64,000 bases of DNA from the NCBI GenBank assembly GCA_947498325.1, contig CANMKE010000006.1, positions 62,001 to 126,000 of the forward strand, written 5' to 3'. Every line of letters begins with the position of its first letter. Within the stretch, counting starts at the first letter, position 1. Shown here in pieces: positions 32,127-52,017 of this stretch. A program made the position numbers and the translations under genes. The notes beneath the pieces were generated by a model. The model was not told where the DNA came from, searched no databases, and was given only the letters and a program-made list of their open reading frames with translations. The stretch comes from an uncultured Persicobacter sp. (lineage in GTDB: Bacteria; Bacteroidota; Bacteroidia; Cytophagales; Cyclobacteriaceae).

Positions 32127-34796
32127 ATGAGCAGACAATTCATTTTTCTTTTTTTCTTTTTCCTTATTGTAAATCAGTCTTTTGCTGATAATAAAGACCA
32201 CTTTATTAAAAGTGGAGACCCTGAGTTGGATGCGGTGCGCCAAGAGGTGGTGCAGGCGCCGACCGATCGGGGAAATTTTAAATTTCGGGCGATCAAGATG
32301 AAATTGTGGGCGGCCATGCTGCAACAACAGGGCGTACCTTTGCCGGAATATGTGGCGGTGGATAATGCGCTGAATAAGGTTACCCGATGGAATAATTTAA
32401 GGTTTGGCGGGGAGCCTCAGCAGTTCAGTGCCTCGCAGGTTGCGGAGCTGAGTGATATCATTGGTCGTGGATATCAGGTATTGGAAAAATACCAAAAGCA
32501 GGCTTCTACTCAACCGTCCTTGGCTTTCACTTCTTCACAACAGCCGATTGATGCTGCTACCCAAAAAGAGATTCCATGGACTTCTTATAAGGGCAATAAA
32601 AACCTGAGTGGATACACCGGTGCCAATGGCCCAACCAAAGGAGAAATGGCCTGGAAATTCCCTGTCGGACTGGCTTGGGAAGTGCAGCCACAGATTGAAG
32701 GTGATAGAGTGTATTTGTCGTCGCCGGGCGTGCGAACCAATATGTTTTGTGTCGATCTGAAAACAGGTGAGGAGCACTGGAAAACACAGCAAATTATTGA
32801 GATCATGGGCGATCAGCTCTACCATGCTCCTAATAATCAGAGTACGCCAGTAGTGTTGAAAGATAAAGTGTTGTTCAGGGAGTTGGGTGCAAGAGGGAAT
32901 TCTGGCCCAACGAAGGAAATTGTGGTGGTCGATAAAATCACAGGTAAAATTGAGCGTGAAATCTTGGCCGGGCATGTAGATTATCGTGCAGGAAATGCGC
33001 CTTTTGATGCTGATGAGGACATGGTGGTTTATACCTTCGGGATTCAGGATATTCATGATACGCCACCGAAAACTCAGGCGGCCAATCGCGTGATCGGGAA
33101 AAATATCAAAACTGGAAAAGTGATGTGGGATTATATGGTCGGCTATACTTTCGCCGAACCTGTATTGCATCAAAAAAGAGTCTATGTCGGAACGCAGGAC
33201 GGCTATATGTATTCCTGGGATGCGACCAAAAGACAATTCTACCGTCCAAAACCTCAGTGGCAGTTCCGTGCCGGCGGGCCGATCAACAAACAACCATTGG
33301 TGTTGAATGATCGCCTGATTTTTGGTGCGAATGACGGCAAAGTTTATTGTTTGAATAATAAGACAGGTGAGTTGATCTGGTCTTTTGAGGCAAAGGAAAA
33401 ACAGGCACATGCCTTCAGTCATTTTACCACACCATTTGTTTCGGATAACAAAGTATTTATCGGTGCAGCTAATGGACATTTGTATGGTTTGGACTTGGAA
33501 AGCGGAAAAGAAATCATGGATTTCAAAGCCGATGATTGGATCAAGTCCGCACCGGTAGCCAAAGGAAATCAAGTGTTCTTTGCTACTTTGAAAGGAACCC
33601 TTTATGGAGTAGAAATCAAGAAAGGAAAAGTAAAAACCTTATTTGAAAAGCATATTGCTCACCATCCGATTTTGGCGGATTTAGCCATAAAGGATGATAT
33701 TATTTTGGTCAACGATACCGACCTCTATGCGCACGCGATTTCCACCAAAGGAAAGACGCTTTGGAAGAAGAGTTTGATTGAATCTTTTGAGAAGGATGGT
33801 AATCGTATTTTAACCGATCAGATTGCGGGTGGAGCCTATTATCAGTCTAAACCTACCGCTTCGAATAATACCATTTATTTCGGAACGCCGATGCGCTTTG
33901 TTTATGCTGTCGATAGCGAAACAGGTAAAGAAAAATGGAAGTTCGAACTGGGGGCCTCCATCTCCGGTGCGCCGACCATCTATAAAGATAAAATCTATGT
34001 CGGACAGCAAGGAGGAGAGGATGAATTCTATTGTCTCGATGCTAAAACTGGAGATCTGATCTGGTCGCAGAAAGTGGACTGGGTGTGGGGATCGGCGACG
34101 GTTTCCGATGGTATGGTTTATGTGCCGGGTATCGACGGTTATGCCTGGGCTTTGGATGCCAATAACGGACAGATCGTCTGGCGCCAGCCATTCAGCAAGT
34201 CGGTTTGTAGTGAGCCTGCCGTGGATGATGAGCGGGTATATTTCGGCTGTTGGGATGATTACCTGAAGGCTTTCGATAAAAAGACTGGTGAGATCATCTG
34301 GCAATTCAATGGTGCTGGTACCGACTCCGGTGTGGCGATTGTCAAGGATGGAAAAATCTTTGTCAAGAATAAATGTATCGATGCCAAAACCGGCGAGTTG
34401 CTTTGGGAATTCAAGGATGGCAACAACATTTTTAATATTACGCCTGCAGTCCATGATGGCAAGGTCTATATGTCTTGTTGGCATGGTTTGGGGCTTGGCG
34501 GTGTTTGTGTGGAGGCTGTGGTTTATTGCATTGATATTGATAGCGGAAATTTACTCTGGACACAGAATGGCGCAGGCTTGAGCAGTCCGGTGATCGGTGG
34601 GGAAGGCGACGTTTATTTCCCAAGCATTGCCGATCCCTATTTTTATTGTGTGGATGCGAATGGAAATGGCGATGGTACGACCAAAGTGAAGTGGATGTAT
34701 CAGATGGGCAACAAGGTGGAGGAATCAACGCCCGCACTTTACAAGGGAAAAGCCTATGTGATGTCGTCAGATGGTTATATCCATGCGATTCAATAA
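32127..34796 (+). CDS. Secreted PQQ-like beta-propeller paralogue 1
   Basis: This protein has 889 residues from the ATG at 32127. That start is preferred because it gives a signal peptide ending NQSFADN; an upstream ATG at 32073 lies before the terminator. The helical N-terminal domain (about residues 25-130) has the paralogue signature SGDPELDAVRQEV...PTDRGNF...MKLWAAMLQQQG. It is followed by many PQQ_2-type blades. Invariant family motifs present are GHVDYRAG, TDQIAGGAYYQSKP, GGEDEFYCLDAK, WVWGSATVSDG, KSVCSEP and FGCWDDYLKAF. It is the first of five such genes in 20 kb and is followed after 57 bases by GH92. No cofactor ligands of true quinoprotein dehydrogenases are seen. Function is unknown. 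The close packing with glycosidases suggests glycan binding or cleavage. Confidence 0.85.
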   Translation: MSRQFIFLFFFFLIVNQSFADNKDHFIKSGDPELDAVRQEVVQAPTDRGNFKFRAIKMKLWAAMLQQQGVPLPEYVAVDNALNKVTRWNNLRFGGEPQQFSASQVAELSDIIGRGYQVLEKYQKQASTQPSLAFTSSQQPIDAATQKEIPWTSYKGNKNLSGYTGANGPTKGEMAWKFPVGLAWEVQPQIEGDRVYLSSPGVRTNMFCVDLKTGEEHWKTQQIIEIMGDQLYHAPNNQSTPVVLKDKVLFRELGARGNSGPTKEIVVVDKITGKIEREILAGHVDYRAGNAPFDADEDMVVYTFGIQDIHDTPPKTQAANRVIGKNIKTGKVMWDYMVGYTFAEPVLHQKRVYVGTQDGYMYSWDATKRQFYRPKPQWQFRAGGPINKQPLVLNDRLIFGANDGKVYCLNNKTGELIWSFEAKEKQAHAFSHFTTPFVSDNKVFIGAANGHLYGLDLESGKEIMDFKADDWIKSAPVAKGNQVFFATLKGTLYGVEIKKGKVKTLFEKHIAHHPILADLAIKDDIILVNDTDLYAHAISTKGKTLWKKSLIESFEKDGNRILTDQIAGGAYYQSKPTASNNTIYFGTPMRFVYAVDSETGKEKWKFELGASISGAPTIYKDKIYVGQQGGEDEFYCLDAKTGDLIWSQKVDWVWGSATVSDGMVYVPGIDGYAWALDANNGQIVWRQPFSKSVCSEPAVDDERVYFGCWDDYLKAFDKKTGEIIWQFNGAGTDSGVAIVKDGKIFVKNKCIDAKTGELLWEFKDGNNIFNITPAVHDGKVYMSCWHGLGLGGVCVEAVVYCIDIDSGNLLWTQNGAGLSSPVIGGEGDVYFPSIADPYFYCVDANGNGDGTTKVKWMYQMGNKVEESTPALYKGKAYVMSSDGYIHAIQ

Positions 34797-34810
34797 TATT
34801 TCTTTAATAC

Positions 34811-34836
34811 TGGTCGTAGGCTTCTGTCTACGACCA
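34811..34836. repeat. TGGTCGTAG hairpin
   Basis: TGGTCGTAG / CTACGACCA with an 8-base loop lies between propeller 1 and GH92. The family recurs at 15921, 41376 and 56704. Confidence 0.7.
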
Positions 34837-34853
34837 ACCCTAATTTCAAACCT

Positions 34854-37163
34854 ATGAAGCCATTTTTTTATTTTACTATTTTAGTCGCCTTTTTGAATAC
34901 TTCCTGTCGGCAGGCTGAAGTGAAGGAATCCACCACTGAAACCACGCAATTTACCCACTATGTAAATCCATTTATTGGGACAGGCGGCCATGGCCACACT
35001 TTTCCTGGTGCTACGCTTCCTCATGGAATGGTACAATTAAGCCCCGATACCAAAACCAACGGTTGGGATGCCTGCGGAGGTTATCATTTTGACGATCATT
35101 CGATTATCGGTTTCAGTCATACCCACCTGAGTGGTACAGGAATTGCCGATTACGGTGATGTCCTTTTCATGCCGATTGTCGGTGAAAAACCATTGGTTCG
35201 AGGCGAAGATAATGATCCGGACAAAGGCTACCGTTCTCGTTTCAGTCACGATCAAGAGTCCTCAAAACCGGGCTATTATAGCGTTCAGCTGTTAGATGAT
35301 CAGATTCATGCTGAACTGACGACTACGCTCAGAACAGGTTTTCATCGTTACACTTATCCAAAAGGAGCTACCCCAAAATTGATCATCGACCTAACACATG
35401 TGTTACAGGAGAGATTTAATAAAAATCAGGTGAATGAATTTAAGGTAGTCAATAAAAATACTTTACAAGGAAAGAAAAATACCAAAGGTTGGGCCAAAGA
35501 TCAAACCATCTATTTCTATGCTGAGTTCAACCAGGATTTTGATATTCAATTTTTCAAAGATACCGTAGCGGTTGAGGCTAAAGAAGAATTAACGGCCAAG
35601 CGCGCAAAAGCTATCTTGACTTTCAAGAATTCAGACCAACCATTGTTGGCAAAAGTAGGTATTTCAGCAGTTGATTTTGAGGGAGCCAAGAACAATCTGA
35701 TGACTGAAAATGCTCAGTGGGATTTTGATCAAGTAGTGGCTTCGGCAGAAAGAACTTGGAATGATGCCCTTGCTGTGATTGAGGTGGAAGATGAACAATT
35801 GGAGCAGAAGAAAATCCTTTACACTTCCTTGTATCATACGCTTATTCATCCGAACGTTTTCTCTGATGTGGATGGTCGATATTTGAAAATGGACAAGACA
35901 ATCGGGCAGTTGGAAGAAGGAGAAAAGATGCACACGGTATTCTCTCTTTGGGATACTTTCCGGGCGTATCATCCTTTACAGACCATTATTGCACCTGAAG
36001 AGAACGAACAGTATATCCGAAACCTTTTGAGCAAATACCAAGAGGGAGGCATCTTGCCTAAGTGGGAATTGGCAGCAAACTACACCGGAACGATGATCGG
36101 GGCACATGCGATATCAGTCATCACAGATGCCTATGCCAAGGGCCACCGTAACTTTGATGTTGAATTGGCAATGGAAGCCATGAAGCGCTCATCGATGTAC
36201 GATTCATCTAATATTTTGGCACCGAACAAAAGGGTACTCAATAAGATGATGGCTCCAGGAAAATATTATAATGAAACTCTGGGCTATATTCCTGGCGACA
36301 AAGATATTGAATCAGTAGCCAAAGCAATGGAGTTTGCTTACAATGACTGGGCGTTAGGTGCGTTCGCCAAGAGCATAGGACAAAAAGAAGATGCGCAGTA
36401 TTTTACTGATCGTTCCAAGCACTACAAAAAGTACTTTGACGCCTCGACCGGTTTCATGCGAGGAAAGATGAGCGATGGCAGTTGGAGAACGCCTTTTGAC
36501 CCACAGGCATCGAAGCATAGAAAGGATGATTATTGTGAAGGAAATGCTTGGCAGTGGACTTGGTTCGTGCCGCATGATGTAGCAGGTTTGACAGCATTGA
36601 TGGGCGGTCAGGAGAAAGCGATTACCAAGTTGGATCAATTCTTTTCGATGAGTTCAGAGATTACTGGAGGACACCGTTCCAATGATATTTCCGGAATGAT
36701 CGGTCAGTATGCGCATGGTAACGAACCGGGTCATCATACCACATTCTTCTATAATTATTTGGGTCAGCCTTACAAAACACAGGCTTTGGTGGATTCGGTG
36801 ATGTATCATTATTACTTCAATGATCCAAATGGCGTTGCCGGAAATGAGGACTGTGGGCAGATGTCTGCTTGGTTCATTTTGAATGCTTCAGGTATTTATC
36901 AGTTCTGTCCTGGGGAAACCACTTACACTATCGGGCGTCCGATTTTCAAGAACTTCAAGTACAATTTACCTAATGGTAAAGCCTTCGAAGTGAAGACGGT
37001 AAACAATAGCCAAACCAATAAATATGTTCAGAAAGTAAGTCTGAACGGTAAAGAGTTATTGACACCATTTATCGATTACCAAGACATCGCCAAAGGTGGT
37101 TTGTTGGAATTCGAAATGGGGGATCAGCCGAATAAAGAATGGGGCAAGAGCCAACAAATTTAA
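34854..37163 (+). CDS. GH92 exo-alpha-mannosidase (second copy, lipoprotein)
   Basis: This 769-residue GH92 enzyme has a lipoprotein signal (MKPFFYFTILVAFLNTSCRQ, Cys18), unlike the soluble first copy. Family signatures are NPFIGTGGHGHTFPGATLPH, GWDACGGYHF, GFSHTHLSGTGI, the acid region YCEGNAWQW, HGNEPGHH and GNEDCGQMSAWF. It differs throughout from the copy at 15989, so this is an old paralogue with possibly a different linkage preference. The lipid anchor would place it at the outer membrane near SusCD, whereas the other copy is probably periplasmic. Both are neighbours of a beta-propeller gene. Removal of alpha-linked mannose is the expected reaction. Confidence 0.94.
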   Translation: MKPFFYFTILVAFLNTSCRQAEVKESTTETTQFTHYVNPFIGTGGHGHTFPGATLPHGMVQLSPDTKTNGWDACGGYHFDDHSIIGFSHTHLSGTGIADYGDVLFMPIVGEKPLVRGEDNDPDKGYRSRFSHDQESSKPGYYSVQLLDDQIHAELTTTLRTGFHRYTYPKGATPKLIIDLTHVLQERFNKNQVNEFKVVNKNTLQGKKNTKGWAKDQTIYFYAEFNQDFDIQFFKDTVAVEAKEELTAKRAKAILTFKNSDQPLLAKVGISAVDFEGAKNNLMTENAQWDFDQVVASAERTWNDALAVIEVEDEQLEQKKILYTSLYHTLIHPNVFSDVDGRYLKMDKTIGQLEEGEKMHTVFSLWDTFRAYHPLQTIIAPEENEQYIRNLLSKYQEGGILPKWELAANYTGTMIGAHAISVITDAYAKGHRNFDVELAMEAMKRSSMYDSSNILAPNKRVLNKMMAPGKYYNETLGYIPGDKDIESVAKAMEFAYNDWALGAFAKSIGQKEDAQYFTDRSKHYKKYFDASTGFMRGKMSDGSWRTPFDPQASKHRKDDYCEGNAWQWTWFVPHDVAGLTALMGGQEKAITKLDQFFSMSSEITGGHRSNDISGMIGQYAHGNEPGHHTTFFYNYLGQPYKTQALVDSVMYHYYFNDPNGVAGNEDCGQMSAWFILNASGIYQFCPGETTYTIGRPIFKNFKYNLPNGKAFEVKTVNNSQTNKYVQKVSLNGKELLTPFIDYQDIAKGGLLEFEMGDQPNKEWGKSQQI

Positions 37164-37218
37164 ATTCTATGTAGGGTCAGGCCTATGTGCCTGACCTTAT
37201 GTCCAATTTTTTGTTTTC

Positions 37219-37247
37219 CCTATCGCGAGACTCTGTCTCGTGATAGG
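37219..37247. repeat. CTATCGCGAGA palindrome, copy 2
   Basis: CCTATCGCGAGAC / GTCTCGTGATAGG hairpin in the 155-base gap after GH92. Confidence 0.75.
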
Positions 37248-37262
37248 AATTTGAAACAAGGC

Positions 37263-37289: not shown

Positions 37290-37318
37290 ATCAAATACCA
37301 ACATCAACCAAAACCAAC

Positions 37319-40000
37319 ATGAAAGCGAAAGTATTCTTATTTTTTCTACTTCTGCTGACAGTCAATTTACAGGCGCAGGACATTAAATTTCCTTCTGGTG
37401 ATCAGGAGCTTGACCTTATGCGTCAGCAGGTCAGTGAGCAACCAACCGAATGGGAAGATTTCCGCTTGCGTTGTTTTAAAATGAAACTATGGATGGTTTT
37501 GCTTCAACAGCAAGGAGCAGACTTAACATCCTACCTCGATATTGATAAACGCTTGCGAAAAATTGTCTGGTGGAATACCATTTTCTGGAATGAAGGTAAG
37601 CCGCAGCAATTTACGGAGGAACAAAAAGTCAAGCTTTGCAAGATTGTGGATGATGGTTTTATGGCTTTGGAACAGTCTCAAAAAAAATTGGCAGAACATC
37701 CGCCGTTGGTGAAGAAATCGGACCGTCCTGCTTATGCGTCTAATGAAAAGTCACCTAACTGGACGCATTATAAAGGAGATAATGGCTTGAGTGGTTTTAC
37801 CGGAGCGATGGGGCCGCAGCAAGGCGAAATGGCTTTTAAATTTCCGGTAGGATTACCATGGGAATCTGCGCCGGTCGTGGATGGCAATGTCGTTTATTTA
37901 TCTTCTCCCGGAATGCGTGAAACCCTATATGCGGTTGATATTCATACGGGAGAAAAGCTGTGGACGAACCGTCAGACGGCCGAGATCATGATGGATCAGA
38001 TCTATAATACACCAAGCAATATGTCCACGCCTGTGGTATTGGAAGATGTGGTGATGTATCGGGAATGCGGAAGCCGAGGCAACAAAGGGCCGAGCCGTGA
38101 TTTGGTCTATGTTGATAAGAAAACAGGGGAGACTATCAAGCAAGTTGAGGCTGGTCATGTCGATTACCGTGTGGGTTTACCCGCTTTCAGTGCCAATGAA
38201 AAATATGCTATTTTCCCACATGGGGTGCAGGATATTGAAGCTGTTCCGGCGATTGCTCAGTCATTTAATCGCATTATTTGTCGAGATCAGCAATCAGGTA
38301 AAAAATTGTGGGATTTTAATATTGGTCATACCTTCTGCCCCCCGGTTTTGGATGGGAATCAAGTGTATGTTGCGAATCAGATCGGATATGTTTATGGAAT
38401 GCGTGCGGACTTGAAATTATTCCCCGCTTCGAGTAAACGATTGGCTTGGCAGTTTCGAGCAAAAGGGTCTGTGAATGAAGAAATCACTTACGATGACCGT
38501 AATGTTTACTTCGGTGATAATGCGGGTTTTGTTTATGCTTTGGATAAAAATACAGGGGCTGAACGTTGGTCGTATCAGGTGAAAAATCCCAATCCAAGAG
38601 CTTTCCGTCATTTCTCCAAACCATTGGTGCATCAGGGCAAATTAATCGTCGGAGGGGCTAATCAGGAATTATATATTTTTGATAAGGAAAACGGAAATCT
38701 TGAAGCGCAATTGAGTATGGATGATTGGGTAAGAGCACAGCCTACGGCACAAAATGACCATCTTTTTGTCGCAACCATGAAAGGTTCTCTTTATCATATC
38801 AGTCTAAAAAATAAAGCCAAGATTAAGGATAAAATCAAGATCGGTAATCATGCCGTTTTAGCGGATTTGGTCAGTACCGATCAGTATGTTTTGGTTAATG
38901 ATACAGACCTGAAAACACGATGCTATGATTTGAAAGGTAAACTGAAATGGGAGCTGAGTCAGATTGCCTGTTTTGAAAAAAATGGCAACAGAATTCTAAC
39001 CGATCAAATTGCTGGTGGCGCAAGGTTCATGTCTAAGCCTACCGTGGTGGATGGTGTCCTGTATTTCGGTACACCGATGCGATTTGTCTATGCAGTCGAT
39101 GCCAAAACAGGTGAAGAATTATGGAAATTTGAAGCGGGAGCTTCACAATGTGGTGCGCCGGTTTACGATCAAGGGAAATTGTACTTTGGTGTGCACAGTG
39201 GGGAGGATGAATTCTACTGCGTAGATGCCAAAACCGGAAAACCCGAATGGACACAGGATATTGGCTGGGTATTCGGCTCTCCCAATGTTTCGGACGGAAT
39301 GGTCTATGTGCCCAGTATCGATGGGAATGTCAATGCGATGGATGCCGAGACGGGTGCTCTGATCTGGCGACACCGCTTGGATCGTTCGATCTGCAGTGAA
39401 CCGATGTTGGAGAAAGATCAGGTTTTCTGGGGAAGTTGGGATCATTACCTGTATGCGATGGACAAAAAGACCGGACACATCAACTGGAAATTCCCTTTGG
39501 ATGGAGGGACAGATTCCGGTGTGCCGATTGTTAAAAATGACCGTATTTATTTGCCGATTGGCGGACCTCGTTTTCGTTGTCTGAACGCCTTGTCGGGTGA
39601 GGTGCTGTGGGAATATTTCGAGCAGGGAGCGACCTTCAATGTAACGCCCGCATATCATAATGGAAAAGTATTCGCCTCTACTTGGCGGGGTGTCGGATTG
39701 GGGGGGATTTGCGTGCAGTCGATCCTGTATGGAATGGATGCCAGTACGGGAGAAGTCCTTTGGGAACACCCTGGTGGTGGTTTGAGTGGGCCGGTAGTGG
39801 GGGCCGATGGGACCGTTTATTGCGCTTCGGTTTCAGACCCTTTCCTTTATGCGATCAAACCCGAACCCACTGAGGACGGCAGCCCGCAAACCCTTTGGAT
39901 GTATGACCTGGGCAACAAGGTGGAAGAATCCACACCGGCACTATACGACGGAATGGCTTACGTGATGTCTTCTGACGGTTATCTACATGCGATAAAATAA
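37319..40000 (+). CDS. Secreted PQQ-like beta-propeller paralogue 2
   Basis: This 893-residue protein has signal peptide MKAKVFLFFLLLLTVNLQAQ. The N-terminal helical domain reads SGDQELDLMRQQV...MKLWMVLLQQQG. It is the most divergent of the five in that domain (PTEWEDF replaces PTD-SNY). The propeller keeps GHVDYRVG, TDQIAGGARFMSKP, GEDEFYCVDAK, RSICSEP, WGSWDHYLYAM and FNVTPAYHNGK. The last blade ends YVMSSDGYLHAIK, nearly the same as paralogue 1. It sits between GH92 and a GH99-type gene, the latter 53 bases downstream. Periplasmic or surface location is expected; there is no known activity. Confidence 0.85.
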   Translation: MKAKVFLFFLLLLTVNLQAQDIKFPSGDQELDLMRQQVSEQPTEWEDFRLRCFKMKLWMVLLQQQGADLTSYLDIDKRLRKIVWWNTIFWNEGKPQQFTEEQKVKLCKIVDDGFMALEQSQKKLAEHPPLVKKSDRPAYASNEKSPNWTHYKGDNGLSGFTGAMGPQQGEMAFKFPVGLPWESAPVVDGNVVYLSSPGMRETLYAVDIHTGEKLWTNRQTAEIMMDQIYNTPSNMSTPVVLEDVVMYRECGSRGNKGPSRDLVYVDKKTGETIKQVEAGHVDYRVGLPAFSANEKYAIFPHGVQDIEAVPAIAQSFNRIICRDQQSGKKLWDFNIGHTFCPPVLDGNQVYVANQIGYVYGMRADLKLFPASSKRLAWQFRAKGSVNEEITYDDRNVYFGDNAGFVYALDKNTGAERWSYQVKNPNPRAFRHFSKPLVHQGKLIVGGANQELYIFDKENGNLEAQLSMDDWVRAQPTAQNDHLFVATMKGSLYHISLKNKAKIKDKIKIGNHAVLADLVSTDQYVLVNDTDLKTRCYDLKGKLKWELSQIACFEKNGNRILTDQIAGGARFMSKPTVVDGVLYFGTPMRFVYAVDAKTGEELWKFEAGASQCGAPVYDQGKLYFGVHSGEDEFYCVDAKTGKPEWTQDIGWVFGSPNVSDGMVYVPSIDGNVNAMDAETGALIWRHRLDRSICSEPMLEKDQVFWGSWDHYLYAMDKKTGHINWKFPLDGGTDSGVPIVKNDRIYLPIGGPRFRCLNALSGEVLWEYFEQGATFNVTPAYHNGKVFASTWRGVGLGGICVQSILYGMDASTGEVLWEHPGGGLSGPVVGADGTVYCASVSDPFLYAIKPEPTEDGSPQTLWMYDLGNKVEESTPALYDGMAYVMSSDGYLHAIK

Positions 40001-40053: not shown

Positions 40054-41334
40054 ATGAAACATTTAATTTGCTTTTTTTTGTGTTGGATATCTGTAAATCC
40101 ACTGCTGGCTGATCATGGAGCGAAGCACCAATCGAAGTCACGGTTTATGCAATATGATCAGCTTTTGATGGCCGGCTACCAGGGTTGGTTCAGAACGCCT
40201 GGCGATCCTTCCGGGGAAAACTGGTGGATTCATTATGGTAAAAACGGTTTTTTTGATACAGAACATTGTACTATTGATCTATGGCCTGATGTTTCAGAAT
40301 ATAAGAAAACCTATGACACCCCATTTTATTTTAAAAATGGCGAACAGGTGAAGGTGTTCAGCAGTGTCGATAAAAGCACATTGAACCTGCATTTTCAGTG
40401 GATGAAGGATTATCAGATTGATGGGGCTTTTATGCAACGGTTTTATGTAAATCGCTACATTCCTGGAACAAAAAATACCATGACAAAGGTGCTTGAAAAT
40501 GGAATGCAAGCGGCGCAAAAGCATGAACGGGCGTGGGCGGTCATGTATGATTTGTCGGGGATGAATGCCTCAAATACTGATTGTCAGGATATCATTGATG
40601 ACTGGAAATATTTGATTGACAGCATGCGCATCACACGGCAGGGGAAAAAGCAAACTTATCTTTATGATCAGGGGAAGCCTGTAGTTGCTATTTGGGGACT
40701 TGGTTTCAAAGAACGCCCCTATGATACCTTTAAAATTCAAATTGAAACGCTCTTGGATTTTCTGCAACATGACCCCGAATATGGAGGGTGTGCGGTGATG
40801 GTTGGGGTACCTACTTACTGGCGGACACTGAAAAATGACTGCATAACCGAGCCCAAATTCTTGGAGGTCATGAAGCGTGTCGATGTCATTATGCCATGGA
40901 TGGTGGGACGTTTCGATAATCACCCTTATGCATTGGAGAGGTATAAGAAGATCGTTGCTGAGGATCAGGCGTGGTGTGATACCCATCAGATAAAATATGT
41001 GCCGGTTACTTACCCGGGTTTTAGTAATCATAATTTGAGTCTTTTTGAAAGAGGCGAGGAGGATAGTTTTCCGGTGAATATGATAAAGCGGGAGGAAGGA
41101 CTTTTCTTTCAGCAACTACTACAGGCCAATATCGATGCAAAAGCAAGCAACATTTATGTAGCGATGTTTGATGAAATCGATGAAGGAACGGCGATATTTA
41201 AATGTATTAACCGAAAACCGGCGGGACCACTGGGTTTCTCCACTTATGAAGGGATGCCATCCGATACTTATCTGAAAATTGCTGGAGATTATGCACAAAA
41301 GTTAAAGCGGGTAAAGAAACGGCCCTCAAAGTAA
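40054..41334 (+). CDS. GH99/GH71-like glycoside hydrolase
   Basis: This protein has 426 residues from the ATG at 40054; a GTG six bases earlier is less likely. It has a Sec signal (MKHLICFFLCWISVNPLLAD). The chain starts with the GH99-type motif MAGYQGWFRTPGD and continues as a TIM barrel. Near the C-terminus AMFDEIDEGTAIF places Glu374 and Glu377 three residues apart, as in the catalytic EWHE pair of GH99 endo-alpha-mannosidases/mannanases. This copy thus appears catalytically equipped, unlike the GH99-fold lipoprotein at 29442. It would cut internal alpha-mannosidic or related bonds and produce substrates for the GH92 enzymes. It is assigned to the GH99/GH71-like clan; the exact family and bond are uncertain. 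Confidence 0.82.
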   Translation: MKHLICFFLCWISVNPLLADHGAKHQSKSRFMQYDQLLMAGYQGWFRTPGDPSGENWWIHYGKNGFFDTEHCTIDLWPDVSEYKKTYDTPFYFKNGEQVKVFSSVDKSTLNLHFQWMKDYQIDGAFMQRFYVNRYIPGTKNTMTKVLENGMQAAQKHERAWAVMYDLSGMNASNTDCQDIIDDWKYLIDSMRITRQGKKQTYLYDQGKPVVAIWGLGFKERPYDTFKIQIETLLDFLQHDPEYGGCAVMVGVPTYWRTLKNDCITEPKFLEVMKRVDVIMPWMVGRFDNHPYALERYKKIVAEDQAWCDTHQIKYVPVTYPGFSNHNLSLFERGEEDSFPVNMIKREEGLFFQQLLQANIDAKASNIYVAMFDEIDEGTAIFKCINRKPAGPLGFSTYEGMPSDTYLKIAGDYAQKLKRVKKRPSK

Positions 41335-44506: not shown

Positions 44507-44558
44507 AAATTATTTAATATCTGCTATGATTTGATAACCCAAATAAAAGCCTAAATCC

Positions 44559-47252
44559 ATGAAAATACGCCTGCTCACCTCATTCGCCTTTAGTTTTTTG
44601 TTCTTATTTTCCTGCACTCAACCCAAGGAGGAAACCTTTCAAGCACCCAAAGATTTCATTCCTTCTGGCAATGCTGAATTGGATCAGTTGCGCATGCAGT
44701 TTCGGTCGGTTCCCACGGACTTATCCAATTACAATGAAAGGGGCGTGATGATGAAGTTATGGGCAACTTCTTTACAGCAACAAGGGGCTGATCTCGGTGA
44801 TGGCTATGTTGTGGTGGATGATAGTCTTCGGGCGGTGGATAATTACAATCCTGTTTTTACCGGAGGAGCGGAAAAGGTGTTGTCTGATGTTGATAAAAAG
44901 CGATATGCAGTTACGGTGCAAAAGGGATTGGGTATTTTGGACAGTATTCAAAACCATTTAACCGAAGAAAATGAAAGCCAAAAGTTGGTTGCTTCAGTAG
45001 GTACGAATACAGCCTCCGTAAATCAAACACCATGGCCAAACTATCGCGCCAATGCGCAAAGAACAGGCTTTTCGGGTGCGCCTGGTCCCACTCAGGGTGT
45101 GGTTGATTGGAAATTTCCTGTCGGTTTACCTTGGGAATCTTCGGCTTTGATTGATGGGGATAAAGTGTATTTGTGTTCGCCTGGTATGCGGAACATGCTG
45201 TTTACCCTCGATTTGAAAACGGGAAAAGTCATTCATGAAACCAAGCAAAAAGCCAACCTGCGTGTGGATCAACTCTATGGAACGCCAGCACTGAACAGTA
45301 CACCTGTTTTGGTCAATGGTAAAATTTTAATGCGGGAATTGGGAAGTCGTGGTAACAAGGGCGATGCCAAGGATATTGTAGTGATTGATCAAAAATCGGG
45401 AAAGGTTACGAAGGAAATTACCGCCGGACATATTGATTACCGTGCGGGTTATGCGCCTTTTGATGCCAATGATAAATATGTAGTTTTTCCTTTCTCCCAC
45501 CATGATATTGAAGAAAAACCGCCTGTTGCTCAGGCTTTCAATCGCATTATTTGTAAAGATTATGAAGGAAATACACATTGGGATTTCAACATCGGAACGA
45601 CCTTTTGTAATCCTCATATCGATAAGGAATTAGTGTATGTCGGCACCACTTCCGGTACCTTATATGCGCTGAATCTCGAAGGACATTATGTGCCAGCTTC
45701 TTCCGAGCGTATTGCTTGGGAATTTCAGGCGAAAGGTGCTGTAAATCAGACCGTGAGTACGGATGAAATTAATTTGTATTTTTCGGATAACGCAGGTTGG
45801 GTTTATGCCCTGAATAAATACAGTGGTCAGTTGGTTTGGGAGAAGCAAATCAGTAAAATCACCATGGATACCCATCGATTTTTCAGTAAAATTAATGTTG
45901 AAAATGATCGACTTTATGTCGGTGGAGCTGATCAATTGATCTATTTTATTAGCAAAAAAAATGGAACCGTTGAGGCTTCTCAAAAGCTGTCGGATTGGGT
46001 GAGATCGAAGCCTGTTCAGATCGGAAAGATGACTTATGTGATGACGATGGATGGACATCTCCATCAATTGAATGCACAAGCTGAAATATTGGAAAAAGTA
46101 AAAGTAGGAGATCACCGATTCTTTGCTGATTTGGCTTATGCTAATGGGGTTTTGGTAGCTAATGACGCCAACTTTACGGCCTTTGCCTTTAATCCTCAAT
46201 TAGAAAAATTGTGGCAGTTCGATTTCCTGAAGAGTTTTTATAATAAGCATAATGAACGCATTCATACCGATGAATTGGCGGCCGGTGCCTATTATCAGTC
46301 CAAACCGACAGCAGATTTGGGGATGGTCTTTGTGGGAACACCTTCGCGCTTTGTATATGGCATTGATGCGCTGAGCGGTGAGCCCGTTTGGAAGACAGAG
46401 TTGTCAGGTGCGGTTTCAGGTGCACCGGTGATTGATCATGGAAAAATCTATATTGGCCAACAAGGTGGTAGCGATGAATTTTACTGCTTGGATGCCAAAA
46501 GTGGTAAGGTGCTATGGAAACAAAATATCGGCTGGGTTTGGGGATCCGTCAATGTATCTGACGGAAAGATCTACGCCCCAGGCATTGATGGTTATGTCTA
46601 TTGTTTGGATGCCGAAGATGGAAACATCTTTTGGCGTTACCGTACCGACCGATCAACCTGTGGTGAGCCGTTGGTGATGGGCGATGCCGTTTATTTTGGT
46701 GGATGGGATCATTATTTGTATAAATTCAATAAAGAGAATGGAGATCTGTTGTGGAAATTTCAGCTTAGTGGTGGCTCAGATTCAGGGGCTCCCGTTGGTG
46801 AAGATGGCAAGATTTTTCTACCTGTCGGTGGTGCTTCTTTCCGGTGCTTGGATGCGATGACCAAGGAAGTCCTTTGGAAACCTCAGCTCGATGGCGAGAT
46901 TTTCAATGTTACTCCCGCCGTGCATGATGGACAAGTGTATATTTCCCAACTGATCGGCAAGGGCTTAGGAGGCGTTCCGGTGAAAAATAAAATCTATGCG
47001 CTGAATAAGGACAACGGACAAAAACTTTGGGAATTCGATGGAGCAGGAGGCCTGACCGGTGCTGTGATCGGTTCCAATGATCGCATTTACAGTGGGGCTA
47101 CAGCCAATCCCTATTTTTATTGTCTATCCAAAGAAGGAGAATTGTTGTGGAAGGTTCGAATGGAGAACAAGGTGGAGGAGTCGGTTCCGGCGCTGTATAT
47201 GAATCGTGCTTATGTACTGAGCAGTGGCGGATTTTTGTACGCGATAAAATAA
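44559..47252 (+). CDS. PQQ-like beta-propeller paralogue 4 (lipoprotein)
   Basis: This 897-residue protein has a lipoprotein signal (MKIRLLTSFAFSFLFLFSCT, Cys19), in contrast to the soluble paralogues. The N-terminal domain is SGNAELDQLRMQF...PTDLSNY...MKLWATSLQQQG. Family motifs are GHIDYRAGYAPF, TDELAAGAYYQSKP (Gln replaced by Glu, Gly by Ala), GSDEFYCLDAK, RSTCGEP, FGGWDHYLYKF and FNVTPAVHDG. The last blade is YVLSSGGFLYAIK. The lipid anchor places it in the outer membrane or periplasmic face. It is separated from its neighbours by repeat-rich gaps, so it may be transcribed alone. Function is unknown. Confidence 0.85.
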   Translation: MKIRLLTSFAFSFLFLFSCTQPKEETFQAPKDFIPSGNAELDQLRMQFRSVPTDLSNYNERGVMMKLWATSLQQQGADLGDGYVVVDDSLRAVDNYNPVFTGGAEKVLSDVDKKRYAVTVQKGLGILDSIQNHLTEENESQKLVASVGTNTASVNQTPWPNYRANAQRTGFSGAPGPTQGVVDWKFPVGLPWESSALIDGDKVYLCSPGMRNMLFTLDLKTGKVIHETKQKANLRVDQLYGTPALNSTPVLVNGKILMRELGSRGNKGDAKDIVVIDQKSGKVTKEITAGHIDYRAGYAPFDANDKYVVFPFSHHDIEEKPPVAQAFNRIICKDYEGNTHWDFNIGTTFCNPHIDKELVYVGTTSGTLYALNLEGHYVPASSERIAWEFQAKGAVNQTVSTDEINLYFSDNAGWVYALNKYSGQLVWEKQISKITMDTHRFFSKINVENDRLYVGGADQLIYFISKKNGTVEASQKLSDWVRSKPVQIGKMTYVMTMDGHLHQLNAQAEILEKVKVGDHRFFADLAYANGVLVANDANFTAFAFNPQLEKLWQFDFLKSFYNKHNERIHTDELAAGAYYQSKPTADLGMVFVGTPSRFVYGIDALSGEPVWKTELSGAVSGAPVIDHGKIYIGQQGGSDEFYCLDAKSGKVLWKQNIGWVWGSVNVSDGKIYAPGIDGYVYCLDAEDGNIFWRYRTDRSTCGEPLVMGDAVYFGGWDHYLYKFNKENGDLLWKFQLSGGSDSGAPVGEDGKIFLPVGGASFRCLDAMTKEVLWKPQLDGEIFNVTPAVHDGQVYISQLIGKGLGGVPVKNKIYALNKDNGQKLWEFDGAGGLTGAVIGSNDRIYSGATANPYFYCLSKEGELLWKVRMENKVEESVPALYMNRAYVLSSGGFLYAIK

Positions 47253-47317
47253 GGGATAATAACTGGGGTTGTCGCATAATGATAAATTGAAATTGTAGCA
47301 AGAAGTTTTATTTGCTC

Positions 47318-47402
47318 GCTGTACGGGCTGACCTATGTGTCTGCCCAAATCATAAAAAATATTGGATCAATTTGGATACACACGTAGGTGCATCCTTGCA
47401 GC
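47318..47402. repeat. MITE-like inverted-repeat element, copy 2
   Basis: It runs from GCTGTACGGG to CTTGCAGC with the same internal arms as the element at 12799 (GACCTATGTGTCTGCCC and CACACGTAGGTGCATCC). It is located in the gap between propeller 4 and the TIM-barrel fusion. Both copies are followed by a similar AT-rich TAATC(C/T)TTTG tail. Confidence 0.65.
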
Positions 47403-47492
47403 TAATAAAATAATCTTTTGTGTTATGCATAAAAAATCGAGTTGTGAAACAATCTACATTGCTATAAAGAAACAAGTAAAACACACCATACT

Positions 47493-49184
47493 ATGAAAAG
47501 AGTCAACCTAATCATTTTACTCTTCCTATTACCAATAATGACAATGGCGCAGCGGTTCCAGGCCGACTGGCCAATGTATGTTTATAATTTCGGTGGACTG
47601 AATAAATTGCCTGTTAAAGAGCAAAAAGCACTGCTAAAAAAATACGGCTACCAAGGCGTGGCGCTGATGGCCAATAACCGCAAACAGATGATCGATCTTT
47701 CGCCTTACTTTGATCAGGCGGATGCGGATTTCCCGATTCAGGCGGTGTTCTTCCGATATAATCATCATGATCCGGAAGCTGTACGTGAAGGCTGGAAGCA
47801 GGTGGTGGATCAGGTTTCGGGCACACCGACTGCTTTCTGGTTCATCATCGGTCGGGATGTGATGATGCCGCATAAAGAAACCCTGGCTTTGCTCGAAAGG
47901 GTGGCCGATTATTGTCAGGAGAAGAATGTGATAATGACGATTTATCCGCATTCGGATGATAATATCCCAACTGCAGAAGAGGCATTGACCTATATCGAGG
48001 AGATGGATCGCCCAAATGTGAATATGGTGATTCATTCCTGTCATGAGATCCGTTCAGGTAATGGAGATCGATTGCCAGAAATCATAAAAAAGGCAAAAGA
48101 TCATTTGGCCTATGTAACGATAGCAGGCAGTGATCGTCAGGTGGATCGTTCGACGCCGATGACTTTGGAAAATAGTACCATCATGGCGCTTTACCGAGGC
48201 AATTTCGATTTGTATCCAATGCTGAAAGCGCTGAAAGAGATTGAATACAAAGGAGCGGTTGGTTTTATCAATCATCAAATCAAAGAAGCGCCTGATCAAT
48301 ATTTGGAAGGTTCAATGGAGCAATATCAGTCGTGGTTGAAGCAATTGAACGCCCCACCTGCGGAAGCTTATGATGCACCCGATCAGGTGTTGTGGCATGC
48401 CAAAACGAAGCAGTGGTTTGTTTCCAATTTAGGGGGAGGAATTTCTTTGGATCGTGATGGTTACAGTTGGATTTCCCGTCTCGATGCTTTGGGTAAAGTG
48501 ATTGATCCGGTGTGGATTGGCTTCGAAGAAGGCTTTGATGCTATTTCGGGCATGATTTCCGATGATCAGTATTTGTATGCTGTCGATCGTGATGGTGTTC
48601 GTCAGATTGATATCGCCCAAAGAAAACAGGTTGCCTTTTATCCTATTCCTGAAGGGGAATTTTTGAATGATATTGCCCTGGCCAAGAATGGGGATTTGTA
48701 TGTGTCGGATTTTTTCGGCGATCAGATTTTCCGCATCATTCCAAAGAAAAATAAAGTCAAACTGTTCCTGAAATCCGAGCGTCTCGAAGCACCGGATGGC
48801 CTTTATATGGAAGACGGATATTTGGTCGTAGCCTCTTGGGGTAAGTTGATTCCTGGAAAAGGATTTGACACCTCGAAAAAAGGGGATTTGCTACGAGTGG
48901 ATCTGAAGAAAAAGACCATTGAGCCACTGTCTGATAAATTGGTAGAATTGGGTAATTTGGAAGGCATCACCAAAGGCAATGGTAATTATTACATTACGGA
49001 TTGGGCATCCGGTGAAGTGATTAAAGTGGATAAGGATTTCAATCCAAGCATTTTGATCAAGGGATTGAGTCACCCGACGGATCCTGATTTTTCAGCGGAA
49101 CAACAACGCCTCGCTTTTCCTCAACATGGCACCAATCAGGTGTTGTTTGTGGATGTGGAGGAGAAAAGCGTTATGAAGCAATAA
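47493..49184 (+). CDS. TIM-barrel / six-bladed propeller fusion protein
   Basis: This 563-residue protein has a signal peptide (MKRVNLIILLFLLPIMTMAQ). Residues about 25-280 resemble the xylose-isomerase-like (AP endonuclease 2) TIM barrel found in sugar isomerases/epimerases: KYGYQGVALM, NVIMTIYPHSDD, NVNMVIHSCHEIRSG and GAVGFINHQI. Residues about 290-563 resemble an SMP-30/gluconolactonase or NHL-like propeller (FLNDIALAKNGDLYVSDFFG, LEAPDGLYMEDGYLVVASWG, LEGITKGNGNYYITDWASG). It is an exported fusion of a presumed sugar-converting barrel and a lactonase-type propeller. It sits between propellers 4 and 5. A role in modifying a released sugar in the periplasm is inferred; no catalytic residues were confirmed. 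Confidence 0.78.
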   Translation: MKRVNLIILLFLLPIMTMAQRFQADWPMYVYNFGGLNKLPVKEQKALLKKYGYQGVALMANNRKQMIDLSPYFDQADADFPIQAVFFRYNHHDPEAVREGWKQVVDQVSGTPTAFWFIIGRDVMMPHKETLALLERVADYCQEKNVIMTIYPHSDDNIPTAEEALTYIEEMDRPNVNMVIHSCHEIRSGNGDRLPEIIKKAKDHLAYVTIAGSDRQVDRSTPMTLENSTIMALYRGNFDLYPMLKALKEIEYKGAVGFINHQIKEAPDQYLEGSMEQYQSWLKQLNAPPAEAYDAPDQVLWHAKTKQWFVSNLGGGISLDRDGYSWISRLDALGKVIDPVWIGFEEGFDAISGMISDDQYLYAVDRDGVRQIDIAQRKQVAFYPIPEGEFLNDIALAKNGDLYVSDFFGDQIFRIIPKKNKVKLFLKSERLEAPDGLYMEDGYLVVASWGKLIPGKGFDTSKKGDLLRVDLKKKTIEPLSDKLVELGNLEGITKGNGNYYITDWASGEVIKVDKDFNPSILIKGLSHPTDPDFSAEQQRLAFPQHGTNQVLFVDVEEKSVMKQ

Positions 49185-49190
49185 ATGTAG

Positions 49191-49210
49191 GGACGTTGCA
49201 TGCAACGTCC
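49191..49210. repeat. Perfect 20-bp palindrome, copy 1
   Basis: GGACGTTGCATGCAACGTCC, fully self-complementary, occurs a few bases after the TIM/propeller stop. An identical copy is at 59766-59785 with inverted flanks. Confidence 0.75.
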
Positions 49211-49302
49211 GTACCGATAGATAGAAAAATACCATTGCTGGTCGTAGGCGCCTATCTTCAACCAATCATATCCCACCAATTTTTTTACATAAAAATCAAA
49301 CA

Positions 49303-52017
49303 ATGAAACCCCTCAACCTACTTCTCGCCCTTCTACTTTTACCCCGCCTTTTATGGGCGGATACCGTTCCTTTTGTATCTTCCGGCGATGCCGAGATTGA
49401 TGCTGTGCGCAAGGAAATCAATGTTCAGCCCACCGACGAAAGCAATTACGCCAAGCGACTTTTGCTGATGAAACTCTGGGCAGTTGCGCTTCAACAGCAA
49501 GGTGTTTATTTGGGCGCTGAATACGAGCAGGTGGACTTGGAATTGCGTCGGGTATCCAAATGGAACCCTGTTTTTCAGGGACTGGAAGGACAGGTTTATA
49601 CTGCTGCTGACATCAAAAAGATAGGTGAGATTGCAGGAAGGGGCTACCAAATATTGGAGGAATTGCAACGTCAATTTTCTGAAAATCCGGAATCGGTCGG
49701 TTATGCGCATCAGCAAGGAGAGGAACGCCTTACTTTTACCGATGCGCCTACCGATTTACCGTGGGCAGATTATCGTGGAAATGCGCAGCGAACGGGTTTT
49801 TCAGGTGCCGATGGACCGGTAAAGGGTAAATTGGCGTGGCGTGCTCCGGTGAGTATTCGTTGGACTTCATCGCCCGCTTTTGACGGAGACACCCTTTACT
49901 TGGTCAGTCCAGGCATGCGGAATATGCTCTGGAAGATGGACGTGAATACCGGAAACGTGTATGAGGTGTTTAAACATACGCCCAAACTTCAGGGCGATCA
50001 GTTGTATTCAGCCCCTGCGATGGCTTCGCAACCTGCTATTGTGGGTGATCATATTTTCCTGCGACAGATGGGGAGTCGTGGAAATCGTGGAGCAACCAAA
50101 TACATTGTCAAATACAACCGTTACTCGGGCAAAGAAGTCGATCGTTTTCTGGTAGGGCACGTGGACTATCGGATGGGTTCGGCGCCTTTGGCAGTGAACG
50201 AAAATTTCCTTGTTTATTCATACGCCATGCATGATATCGAAGGGCGTCCCCCATTATGCGAGCCTTTCAATCGTGTGATTTGTCGCAATCCAAAAACGGG
50301 TAAGAAATTGTGGGATTTTAATATTGGGCCATTCTTTAGTGATCCGGTTTTGGATAACAACCGGATCTTTGTGGGGAATGCTACTGGGCAGTTTTATTGC
50401 CTGAAAGCAGATCAGTGGTATCGTCCTGCTTCTGAGGAGCGCATCGCTTGGGAGTTTCAGGCGGATGGTGAGTTGAATCAGAATCCACTGGTAACCGATA
50501 AAGTGGTTTATTTTAGTTCGAATACGGGATGGCTTTATGCGGTGGATCGACAGACAGGGAAGTTGAATTGGAAATCCAAGCTTGAAAGAGCTACGGGACA
50601 TTTTTCCAAATTATTCTCGGCTCCTGTTCTGATTCCCGATCATGAGGCATTGGTTCTTTCTTCTGCACAAAAACACTTGTTTGTTTTGAATGGTGAAACA
50701 GGGGATTTATTGGCGAAAGCTGAGTTGGAGCAGGGAAGCTATGCAGGAATAGGAGTCGAAGGAAACGATTTGGTGACCGTTGATTTTTCTGGTAAGGCTT
50801 ATGGATTCGAATGGACGGGTAAAAAGTTGGTTACCAAATGGAAAAAACAGGTCGGCGAGCATGAGGTCTTCAGTCAGGTGAAGATCAAAAATGGTAAAGC
50901 GATTTATACGGATGGTCATCTGATGGCTTATGCCTTGGATGTCCGAAATGGTAAAAAGCTTTGGGAACATTCGATCATCAATGCTTTCAAAAAGGATGGG
51001 CAATATATCGGAACGGATCAGATTGCTGGAGGGGCGTATTATGAATCCAAGCCGACAGCGAACAATGGTAAAATCTACATTGGTTCCCCTGCAAGATTTG
51101 TTCAGGCGGTGGATGCTCAAAGTGGTAAAATCCTGTGGCGATTTGAAACCACCGGAGCTATTTCAGGTGCGCCCGTAATTAATGACGGTAAAATCTATAT
51201 TGGACAAGAAGGTGGTGATGACCGCTTTTATTGTTTGAATGCAGAAACGGGCCAACAGCTGTGGACACAAAGCATCGGTTGGGTATGGGGAAGTGCCAAT
51301 GTTGCGAATCAGAGGGTTTTTGTGCCTGGCGTTGATGGTTATGTCAATTGCCTGAGTGCCGATAATGGCGCTATTTTGTGGCGCTACCGAACCGAACGAT
51401 CTACCTGTACCGAGCCTTTGATCTTGGGCAATGATGTTTATTTCGGTGGCTGGGATCACTATATGTACAAATTTGATCAGGCGACAGGAAAGCTGAAATG
51501 GAAGTTTCAATTAGGAGGCGGTTCAGACAGTGGGGCTCCAATTGCTGGCGATGGCAAGCTGTTTCTTCCTGTGGGTGGTGGTACTTTCCGTGCGCTGAAT
51601 CCCGAAACCAAAAAGGTAGAATGGATTCCTTCTTTGCAGGGGAAAATGTATAACGTAACGCCAGGTTACCATGATGGTAAAGTGTATTTGTCCTGCCTCA
51701 ATGGACAAGGTATCGGGGGAATTCCGATCAACAATCAGATCTTCTGTGCCGATGCCAAAACAGGAGAAATCGAATGGACCTTCGATGGTGGTGGCGGCCT
51801 GACCGGTCCTGTGATTGGTAATAACAATCGCTTGTATTTTGCCTCTACCGCTTCGCCTTACTTTTATTGTGTCAAACCCAAAGGCAATGGCGATGGTACT
51901 ACCGATATTCTGTGGAAGGTGAAAATGGAAAACAAGGTGGAGGAGTCTGTCCCTATTTTGTATAAGCGAAAGGCTTATGTGCTGAATTCAGCGGGGTATT
52001 TGGTGGCGATTGAGTAG
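49303..52017 (+). CDS. Secreted PQQ-like beta-propeller paralogue 5
   Basis: This 904-residue protein has signal peptide MKPLNLLLALLLLPRLLWAD. The N-terminal domain is SGDAEIDAVRKEINVQPTDE with MKLWAVALQQQG. The propeller has GHVDYRMG, TDQIAGGAYYESKP, GDDRFYCLNAE (the family Glu-Phe is replaced by Arg-Phe), WVWGSANVANQ, RSTCTEP, FGGWDHYMYKF and YNVTPGYHDGK. The middle blades (about residues 440-520) are more divergent than in the other copies. It is the last gene of the propeller cluster and borders the Rhs array. Function is unknown. Confidence 0.85.
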   Translation: MKPLNLLLALLLLPRLLWADTVPFVSSGDAEIDAVRKEINVQPTDESNYAKRLLLMKLWAVALQQQGVYLGAEYEQVDLELRRVSKWNPVFQGLEGQVYTAADIKKIGEIAGRGYQILEELQRQFSENPESVGYAHQQGEERLTFTDAPTDLPWADYRGNAQRTGFSGADGPVKGKLAWRAPVSIRWTSSPAFDGDTLYLVSPGMRNMLWKMDVNTGNVYEVFKHTPKLQGDQLYSAPAMASQPAIVGDHIFLRQMGSRGNRGATKYIVKYNRYSGKEVDRFLVGHVDYRMGSAPLAVNENFLVYSYAMHDIEGRPPLCEPFNRVICRNPKTGKKLWDFNIGPFFSDPVLDNNRIFVGNATGQFYCLKADQWYRPASEERIAWEFQADGELNQNPLVTDKVVYFSSNTGWLYAVDRQTGKLNWKSKLERATGHFSKLFSAPVLIPDHEALVLSSAQKHLFVLNGETGDLLAKAELEQGSYAGIGVEGNDLVTVDFSGKAYGFEWTGKKLVTKWKKQVGEHEVFSQVKIKNGKAIYTDGHLMAYALDVRNGKKLWEHSIINAFKKDGQYIGTDQIAGGAYYESKPTANNGKIYIGSPARFVQAVDAQSGKILWRFETTGAISGAPVINDGKIYIGQEGGDDRFYCLNAETGQQLWTQSIGWVWGSANVANQRVFVPGVDGYVNCLSADNGAILWRYRTERSTCTEPLILGNDVYFGGWDHYMYKFDQATGKLKWKFQLGGGSDSGAPIAGDGKLFLPVGGGTFRALNPETKKVEWIPSLQGKMYNVTPGYHDGKVYLSCLNGQGIGGIPINNQIFCADAKTGEIEWTFDGGGGLTGPVIGNNNRLYFASTASPYFYCVKPKGNGDGTTDILWKVKMENKVEESVPILYKRKAYVLNSAGYLVAIE

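Follow-up and report, generated by a model that had tools for sequence, protein, structure and literature searches.

A 64,000-nucleotide stretch of contig CANMKE010000006.1 (positions 62,001 to 126,000) from an uncultured Persicobacter sp., referred to here as the window, contains five open reading frames of 889–904 amino acids (W1–W5), all on the forward strand and interleaved with genes for proteins of glycoside hydrolase (GH) family 92, GH99 type and TIM-barrel/propeller type. The cluster of five paralogous beta-propeller proteins noticed earlier from the DNA letters (the sequence-only reading) is thereby confirmed. Pairwise identity of 39.9–51.1% over 875–901 aligned residues excludes a chance resemblance; ATG starts are used for W1 and W3, whose longest frames open at TTG. 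Across the 5.66 Mb of the genome, a profile search with W1–W5 identifies a single further relative, W6, which the sequence-only reading overlooked; it is matched in two pieces (E values of 1.2e-96 and 1e-14) and is 28% identical to W3. The propeller motifs described in the sequence-only reading (GH[VI]DYR, D[QE][IL]A[GA]GA, [RK]SxCxEP and WD[HD]Y) each match all five copies, and the vicinal cysteine pair reported there as missing is indeed lacking, with no CC in W1–W6. Its first N-terminal motif occurs in all five in the relaxed form SG[DN]xE[LI]DxxR, whereas MKLWAxxLQQQG is present in four, W2 having MKLWMVLLQQQG.

Profile matches place W1–W5 in the pyrroloquinoline quinone (PQQ)-like propeller superfamily, with both PQQ_2 (197.7–326.4 bits, cut-off 27.6) and Beta-prop_ACSF4 (184.8–232.4 bits, cut-off 133) over their cut-offs in all five copies. 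Two more specific identities were rejected. The BamB model TIGR03300 scores 151.3–191.0 bits against a cut-off of 285.2 in all five, so the counter-case named in the sequence-only reading, a known BamB-type factor, is not borne out; all 16 aligned sequences of the family nevertheless match this model with E values no worse than 1e-20 (the best being 2.4e-68; W3, 174.1 bits). The PQQ-dependent dehydrogenase model TIGR03075 reaches 79.4–124.7 bits against a cut-off of 480, again in all five. Among the matches listed from the open-access literature, no such propeller family appears in titles or the starts of abstracts; subscription papers lie outside this scope and absence from print is unproven. 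Judged by these profiles, W1–W5 would constitute an undescribed family of PQQ-like propeller type. The proposal of a new carbohydrate-active or carbohydrate-binding family is partly supported, in that the family appears coherent, scores below the BamB and PQQ dehydrogenase cut-offs and is multiplied in one glycan locus.

Structure prediction covers W3 among the family members. The AlphaFold2 model, based on 16 aligned sequences (pLDDT 89.2, pTM 0.90), has a helical domain at residues 31–128 followed by sixteen blades that form two eight-bladed PQQ-like propellers. Strand positions and the aligned ranges of fold matches (e.g. 572–903 with 296 residues and 149–903 with 334 residues) fit a predicted first propeller spanning residues 193 to about 570 and a second spanning about 577–903, closed by a strand (178–183) that precedes the first. 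The 50 solved structures listed for the model have Z scores of 33.7–41.6. The N-terminal domain of W3 matches no Pfam family, and across the 16 sequences only single-member matches with E values of 0.018 or worse are found. Modelled alone (pLDDT 84.2), this domain gives no Foldseek match under E 1, and its best VIA Z score of 6.3 is too low to be meaningful for a helical bundle; its predicted fold is described as unmatched and is not claimed as new. The proposed family definition comprises a helical N-terminal domain and two propellers, both as modelled for W3, together with a set of loop residues invariant in 15 of 15 sequences.

Conservation was assessed in these 15 sequences (W1–W5 and ten relatives that are 31.6–59.1% identical to W3; W6 was excluded) by counting polar or aromatic residues (DEHKRNQSTYCW) kept in at least 14. 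Loops were sorted by propeller topology, with the D–A and B–C turns on one face and the A–B and C–D turns on the other; some A strands unmarked by DSSP were placed by eye. Conserved loop residues of the counted types occupy 27 of 265 positions on the D–A/B–C face versus none of the 126 on the opposite face (p = 2.2e-5, without a generic-propeller control). Among the counted residue types only, the figures are 27 of 130 versus 0 of 85 (p = 6.5e-7), and when the D–A/B–C loops are limited to ten residues 18 of 78 are conserved versus 0 of 85. In a table of 34 hand-chosen sites, at least 14 of the 15 sequences agree at 28 and all of them at 18, including (W3 numbering) Tyr236, Asp289-Tyr290-Arg291, Asn393, Asp571, Lys582, Glu614, Gln655, Trp659, Ser663, Glu703, Trp716, Asp741, Ser742, Asn783 and Glu880. 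W6 keeps Tyr236, Asp571, Glu614, Glu703, Trp716, Asp741, Ser742, Asn783 and Glu880 and lacks the Asp-Tyr-Arg triplet, Asn393, Lys582, Trp659 and Ser663; single-site deviations occur in W1, W2, W5, W6 and the relatives L007 and L054. Invariant D-strand tryptophans (e.g. Trp338 and Trp611) look structural. The expectation that the invariant residues cluster in a pocket is borne out for the polar ones to the extent that topology, i.e. which loops carry them, puts them on one propeller face. Family-wide conservation holds for the DYR triplet and for Asp in DQIAGGA, Glu in CSEP and Trp in WDH, but not for two residues marked as key in the sequence-only reading: the His of GHVDYR is missing from six of the ten relatives, and the Cys of RSxCxEP is retained in two and is His in six.

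The family is rare. When one genome collection was scanned by pattern, 36 loci came up; L001–L010 are full members of the family, and the remaining 26 were classed as generic propellers from short or weak matches (L013, L014, L020 and L027 were inspected). Counting known carriers, a propeller of this family is found in one of 59 genomes of close relatives (E 1e-60), one of 295 of the host's own class (E 1e-100) and, at E 1e-120, three of 288 Verrucomicrobiota (the carriers coming from the scan of the one collection), one of 294 Planctomycetota (the phylum of L007), one of 256 Spirochaetota (the phylum of L006) and three of 298 Anaerolineae (the class of L005), one of which, G1198, is new. Several genome searches scored the best three to seven candidates per genome, and absences may be overcounted. 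No relatives were found in plasmid, phage and viral-contig collections. Of the twelve carriers (G000, G350–G359 and G1198), those other than the window's genome are labelled as three Chloroflexota plus G1198 (Anaerolineae), three Verrucomicrobia, one Planctomycetota, one PVC, one Spirochaetaceae and one gammaproteobacterial genome; the last (L001, a 7.8 kb contig with DUF1501 and PSCyt-type genes) may be misbinned. The Spirochaetaceae copy (L006, 4373–7045) is apparently frameshifted late, its profile match stopping at position 728 of 869 while the frame continues.

Each of the ten non-window host genomes searched carries a single copy (E 1e-100). In the tree, W1–W5 and L001 form one group (99/97), divided into W1 with W2 (100/98) and W3–W5 with L001 (100/100); the order inside the latter is less firm (89/92), and L001 is 59% identical to W3. 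Since L001 is placed with W3–W5, the duplication that separated W1/W2 from W3–W5 predates the split from the L001 lineage.

All of W1–W6 have hydrophobic N-termini (maximum mean hydropathy over 11 residues of 2.21–3.42), whereas all nine other sequences with a complete start lack one (0.18–0.76). The secretion proposed earlier thus applies to the window copies and does not extend to the relatives, on a simple hydropathy measure rather than a trained predictor; L001, cut at the contig end, is not counted. Start codons of the relatives were chosen by hand, and the frames of L003, L004, L005 and L010 are readable further upstream; the extension of L005 overlaps an esterase gene and contains a hydrophobic stretch. 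L006 also begins without such a stretch. No lipobox is seen by eye in W1, W2, W3 or W5.

The features of the window are listed in Table 1. The upstream run comprises a sulfatase, a pectate-lyase-like protein, the LacI-type regulator, aldehyde dehydrogenase (ALDH), CoA-transferase, enoyl-CoA hydratase and GH88-like protein, followed by W6 and its GH92 neighbour. Gaps of 0–62 bases run through a lipoprotein gene, SusC, SusD, the WbsX-like gene, a second lipoprotein gene and W1. The WbsX-like protein is presumably GH99-like. The second half of the TIM-barrel protein between W4 and W5, which we take to resemble SMP30, matches a ScyE family at 26.2 bits, under the cut-off. Between the GH92 gene beside W6 and the SusCD pair lies a gene (18703–21699) for a secreted 998-residue protein that has a type IX sorting tail and one CxxCH motif (CSDCH, residue 238), for which Pfam gives no cytochrome family match. 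Downstream of W5, four frames (starting at 52310, 53713, 55105 and 58125, within 52310–59327) share, by eye, a near-identical Rhs-type core with unrelated tails; they resemble orphan Rhs C-terminal cassettes and have no Pfam matches.

Table 1. Genes of the window discussed in the text (coordinates refer to the 64,000-nucleotide stretch)
Feature	Coordinates	Strand	Evidence
Sulfatase	1206..2858	+	PF00884, E 2.7e-55
LacI-type regulator, divergent from ALDH gene	5923..6954	-	PF00356 and PF00532
ALDH, subfamily common to propeller-bearing Verrucomicrobiota	7371..8870	+	
Family I CoA-transferase (YdiF/FadX type)	8898..10457	+	
Enoyl-CoA hydratase superfamily	10506..11204	+	
GH88-like; closest solved protein an unsaturated glucuronyl hydrolase	11363..12724	+	PF07470, 30.1 bits (cut-off 26.6)
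W6, sixth, divergent propeller copy, 937 aa	13058..15871	+	
Second GH92, beside W6	15989..18310	+	PF07971, E 6.5e-173
SusC-type TonB-dependent receptor (Plug, CarbopepD_reg_2)	24445..27678	+	
SusD-like	27687..29441	+	PF12771, E 6.9e-62
WbsX-like (PF14307)	29442..30530	+	31.1 bits (cut-off 25.1)
W1, propeller copy, 889 aa, signal peptide	32127..34796	+	Open frame, paralogue alignment, Pfam
GH92 (alpha-mannosidase family), between W1 and W2	34854..37163	+	PF07971, E 1.9e-170
W2, propeller copy, 893 aa, signal peptide; tree partner of W1	37319..40000	+	Open frame, Pfam, tree
GH99-type, between W2 and W3	40054..41334	+	PF16317, 36.3 bits (cut-off 33)
W3, propeller copy, 903 aa, signal peptide; modelled copy and residue-numbering reference	41445..44156	+	
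W4, propeller copy, 897 aa, lipoprotein-like signal (Cys after hydrophobic stretch, by eye)	44559..47252	+	
Xylose-isomerase-like TIM barrel with propeller-like second half, between W4 and W5	47493..49184	+	PF01261, E 2e-12
W5, propeller copy, 904 aa, signal peptide	49303..52017	+	

Six loci were read at length (G000, G354, G355, G357, G358 and G1198, with only 4 kb on one side in G355); the contigs of L001–L004, L007 and L010 are too short for a comparison of neighbourhoods. A CoA-transferase and a hydratase lie within 25 kb of the propeller gene in four of the six, and three have the ALDH, a recurrence counted without a rarity control for CoA-transferase and hydratase genes, which are common in general. 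In the Verrucomicrobiota loci L008 (G357) and L009 (G358) there is a four-base overlap between the propeller gene and a sugar-permease gene (PF06800), and genes for a hydratase and a family III CoA-transferase run divergently from the propeller gene, separated from it in G357 by a GntR-like gene (by eye); the ALDH of both is 54–55% identical to that of the window. In G1198 a sulfatase gene adjoins the propeller gene, and about 19–24 kb away the gene order of the window recurs for hydratase (37%) and family I CoA-transferase (40%), accompanied by a GH88-like gene (27.6% over 410 residues) and, in divergent orientation, a LacI-type gene (28%); the GH88-like proteins of both the window and G1198 are above the Pfam cut-off. 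L005 (G354) has a GH38 gene after the propeller gene and importer-like genes beyond it (one permease at 26.2 bits, cut-off 26.4), and in L002 a LacI regulator adjoins the propeller gene. The Planctomycetota copy, L007, has the terminal part of a glycyl-radical enzyme gene (1–711) upstream and, on the opposite strand, an aldo/keto reductase gene downstream.

The ALDH subfamily of the window (E 1e-140) is found in one of 198 genomes of its own class, which is the host itself, and in three of 268 Verrucomicrobiota genomes, the very three that carry the propeller; L008 and L009 are closely related, and the three carriers do not count as independent events. All other ALDH matches in the twelve carriers (E 1e-90) are at most 39% identical, so the remaining eight, G1198 included, lack this subfamily. 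The closest solved relatives of the ALDH are an unnamed NAD enzyme (3u4j) and then L-sorbosone dehydrogenase (E 1e-146), that of the CoA-transferase is YdiF and that of the hydratase is 3-hydroxypropionyl-CoA dehydratase, while the GH88-like protein matches its closest solved protein at E 1e-15. The window hydratase and its counterparts in G1198, G357 and G358 are 28–57% identical and by eye keep one glutamate of the usual catalytic pair; the other position is presumably the one that carries Arg or Gln in all four. The GH88-like partner leans towards uronates as substrate, and GH92, GH99 and GH38 lean towards mannosides.

From the family itself, the modelled fold, the one-face conservation, the rarity and the gene context we infer, with evenly balanced confidence, that W1–W5 represent a rare, undescribed family of carbohydrate-processing enzymes; catalysis, bond type, substrate and pathway order are all part of this inference. 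A glycosidic-bond enzyme is the best joint reading because it accommodates the one-sided set of invariant residues (acids, Lys, Asn and Trp), the single intracellular copies beside sugar uptake and the amplification in a SusCD locus. The substrate would bind on the face formed by the D–A and B–C loops, and the C-terminal propeller's funnel is its most likely place; this funnel would be lined (W3 numbering) by acids (Asp571, Glu614, Glu703, Asp717, Asp741 and Glu880), Lys582, Asn783 and three tryptophans (Trp659, Trp661 and Trp716); Tyr236 and Asp289-Tyr290-Arg291 of the first propeller may contribute to the site. Such a set of residues would suit an enzyme that needs no redox cofactor and splits a glycosidic bond either hydrolytically or by beta-elimination. 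Outside the window the one intracellular copy would have a small, imported glycoside as its substrate; in the window lineage the gene has an export signal and would have been duplicated for several linkages of a branched mannan-type glycan, alongside GH92 and GH99. The target glycan would probably be sulfated and uronate-bearing, and the products may feed the neighbouring GH88-like, ALDH, CoA-transferase and enoyl-CoA hydratase steps.

Several points weigh against this interpretation. No member of the family has a known activity, the fold by itself shows no function, and conservation on one face is also compatible with a binding protein or a metal or cofactor site. The protein with the c-type haem motif (CxxCH) leaves room for redox chemistry. 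No matches to the window ALDH, CoA-transferase or hydratase (E 1e-10) occur in 80 kb at G354 or on the 26 kb contig of G355, where family III CoA-transferases were not sought; in G359 the ALDH lies on a separate contig and no hydratase match is found in the 30 kb read. The aldehyde and CoA genes may belong to a non-sugar route, and a ferulate-type (CoA hydratase-lyase with aldehyde dehydrogenase) or carnitine-type role was considered for them, in line with the BD-FAE esterase gene upstream of the propeller gene in L005, the family III CoA-transferases and a best ALDH model of BADH, though under its cut-off. It is suggested only tentatively that the family represents a new glycoside-cleaving class, originally intracellular, with an active site on a double eight-bladed propeller, and that an undescribed CoA-dependent route (ALDH, CoA-transferase and enoyl-CoA hydratase) in at least three phyla degrades a sugar taken from sulfated glycans, or else the acyl or aglycone portion of that sugar. 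The invariant one-sided site and the glycan and CoA links in distant phyla give a short list of residues and neighbours for testing such an enzyme class and route.

The five copies could instead be non-catalytic binders of different glycan motifs serving SusCD, the conserved face being a lectin site. This explanation, which is unlikely on balance, is in keeping with five diverged copies in one SusCD locus, with the lipoprotein-like W4 and W6 and with the VCBS-like propellers of a neighbouring class, which the available part of one survey describes as typically linked to carbohydrate recognition (PMC9218822). Surface capture, however, makes little sense for the lone copies without signal peptides in other genomes, and lectin specificity would be expected to vary, whereas the same acids, Lys, Tyr and Arg recur unchanged from phylum to phylum.

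A uronate-specific lyase, a special case of the enzyme interpretation with a similarly low probability, would use Tyr, Lys and Arg for beta-elimination and leave the unsaturated product to the GH88-like protein. The families PL22, PL24 and PL25 are propeller lyases. A lyase would account for the GH88-like gene in the window and G1198, for its likeness to an unsaturated glucuronyl hydrolase and for the invariant Tyr236, Tyr290, Arg291 and Lys582, and the available part of the same survey lists propeller lyases in family 11 (PMC9218822). No polysaccharide lyase family appears among the Pfam matches of W1–W5 (E 0.001), however, no GH88-like match (E 1e-10) lies near the Verrucomicrobiota copies, and the same residues could serve other chemistry.

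Less probable still is a sugar dehydrogenase, dependent on PQQ or another cofactor, that passes its product to the ALDH. The structural match to L-sorbose and PQQ alcohol dehydrogenases, the L-sorbosone dehydrogenase likeness of the ALDH and the secreted neighbour with a CxxCH motif, as in c-type cytochromes, would agree with this role. Against it stand the low TIGR03075 scores, the lack of CC in the window copies or at any site shared by the family, the cytoplasmic appearance of the relatives and the absence of a Pfam cytochrome match for the CxxCH protein. PqqE exceeds its 381-bit cut-off in none of the 12 carriers and none of 14 control genomes (no positive control was available, and several carriers are incomplete), all 14 controls giving weak radical-SAM matches; PQQ can also be scavenged from outside. 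Finally, a BamB-like assembly or scaffold protein caught in the locus is very improbable: the best Pfam match, PQQ_2, is labelled BamB, BamB structures align and PQQ propellers are listed under protein binding in the available part of PMC9218822, but the scores are below the cut-off, the model has a second propeller and an extra domain, and elsewhere the proteins lack signal peptides, are patchy (12 genomes found) and are linked to catabolic genes.

In comparison with known systems, the family resembles BamB (TIGR03300/NF008351) in blade sequence type and fold (Z 34.1–37.0); BamB is a single eight-bladed propeller and an assembly factor, whereas the W3 model has two propellers and a helical domain. 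The library matches obtained here illustrate how readily annotation of proteins with PQQ-type propellers falls back on BamB or quinoprotein. PQQ-dependent alcohol and L-sorbose dehydrogenases (TIGR03075, 4mh1) are also alike in fold (Z 33.7–36.2) but carry the vicinal Cys pair at the cofactor; in the family, CC occurs in six of the ten non-window sequences at scattered positions (491, 574, 675, 746, 762 and 813 in W3 numbering, 762 in four of them), none common to all. The GH74 xyloglucanases, with two tandem propellers and a glycan cleft, offer an analogy only: their propellers are seven-bladed with Asp-box motifs, and no GH74-type match occurs among the Pfam matches of W1–W5. The nearest enzyme by fold among the structures listed for the model is tetrathionate hydrolase from Acidithiobacillus ferrooxidans (6l8a), a PQQ-like propeller hydrolase (Z 40.8 over 349 residues, 2.4 Å, 23% identity); it is a periplasmic protein with one propeller, a sulfur substrate and no PQQ. 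By Pfam name the GH150 lambda-carrageenases are carbohydrate hydrolases with a PQQ-type propeller, modelled, according to the available part of one report that makes no mention of the word propeller, as three-domain proteins whose two lobes flank a deep, conserved cleft (PMC12549532). Matches to their propeller (Beta-prop_CGLA, PF25292, cut-off 26.8) are marginal, with W4 (35.5 bits) and L054 (27.1) above the cut-off, W3 (26.4) and W1 (21.7) below it and W2 and W5 not among the matches listed; PQQ_2 fits far better (212.8 bits for W4), and the other parts of GH150 are unmatched. On these profile scores GH150 would be, only marginally, the nearest carbohydrate enzyme by Pfam.

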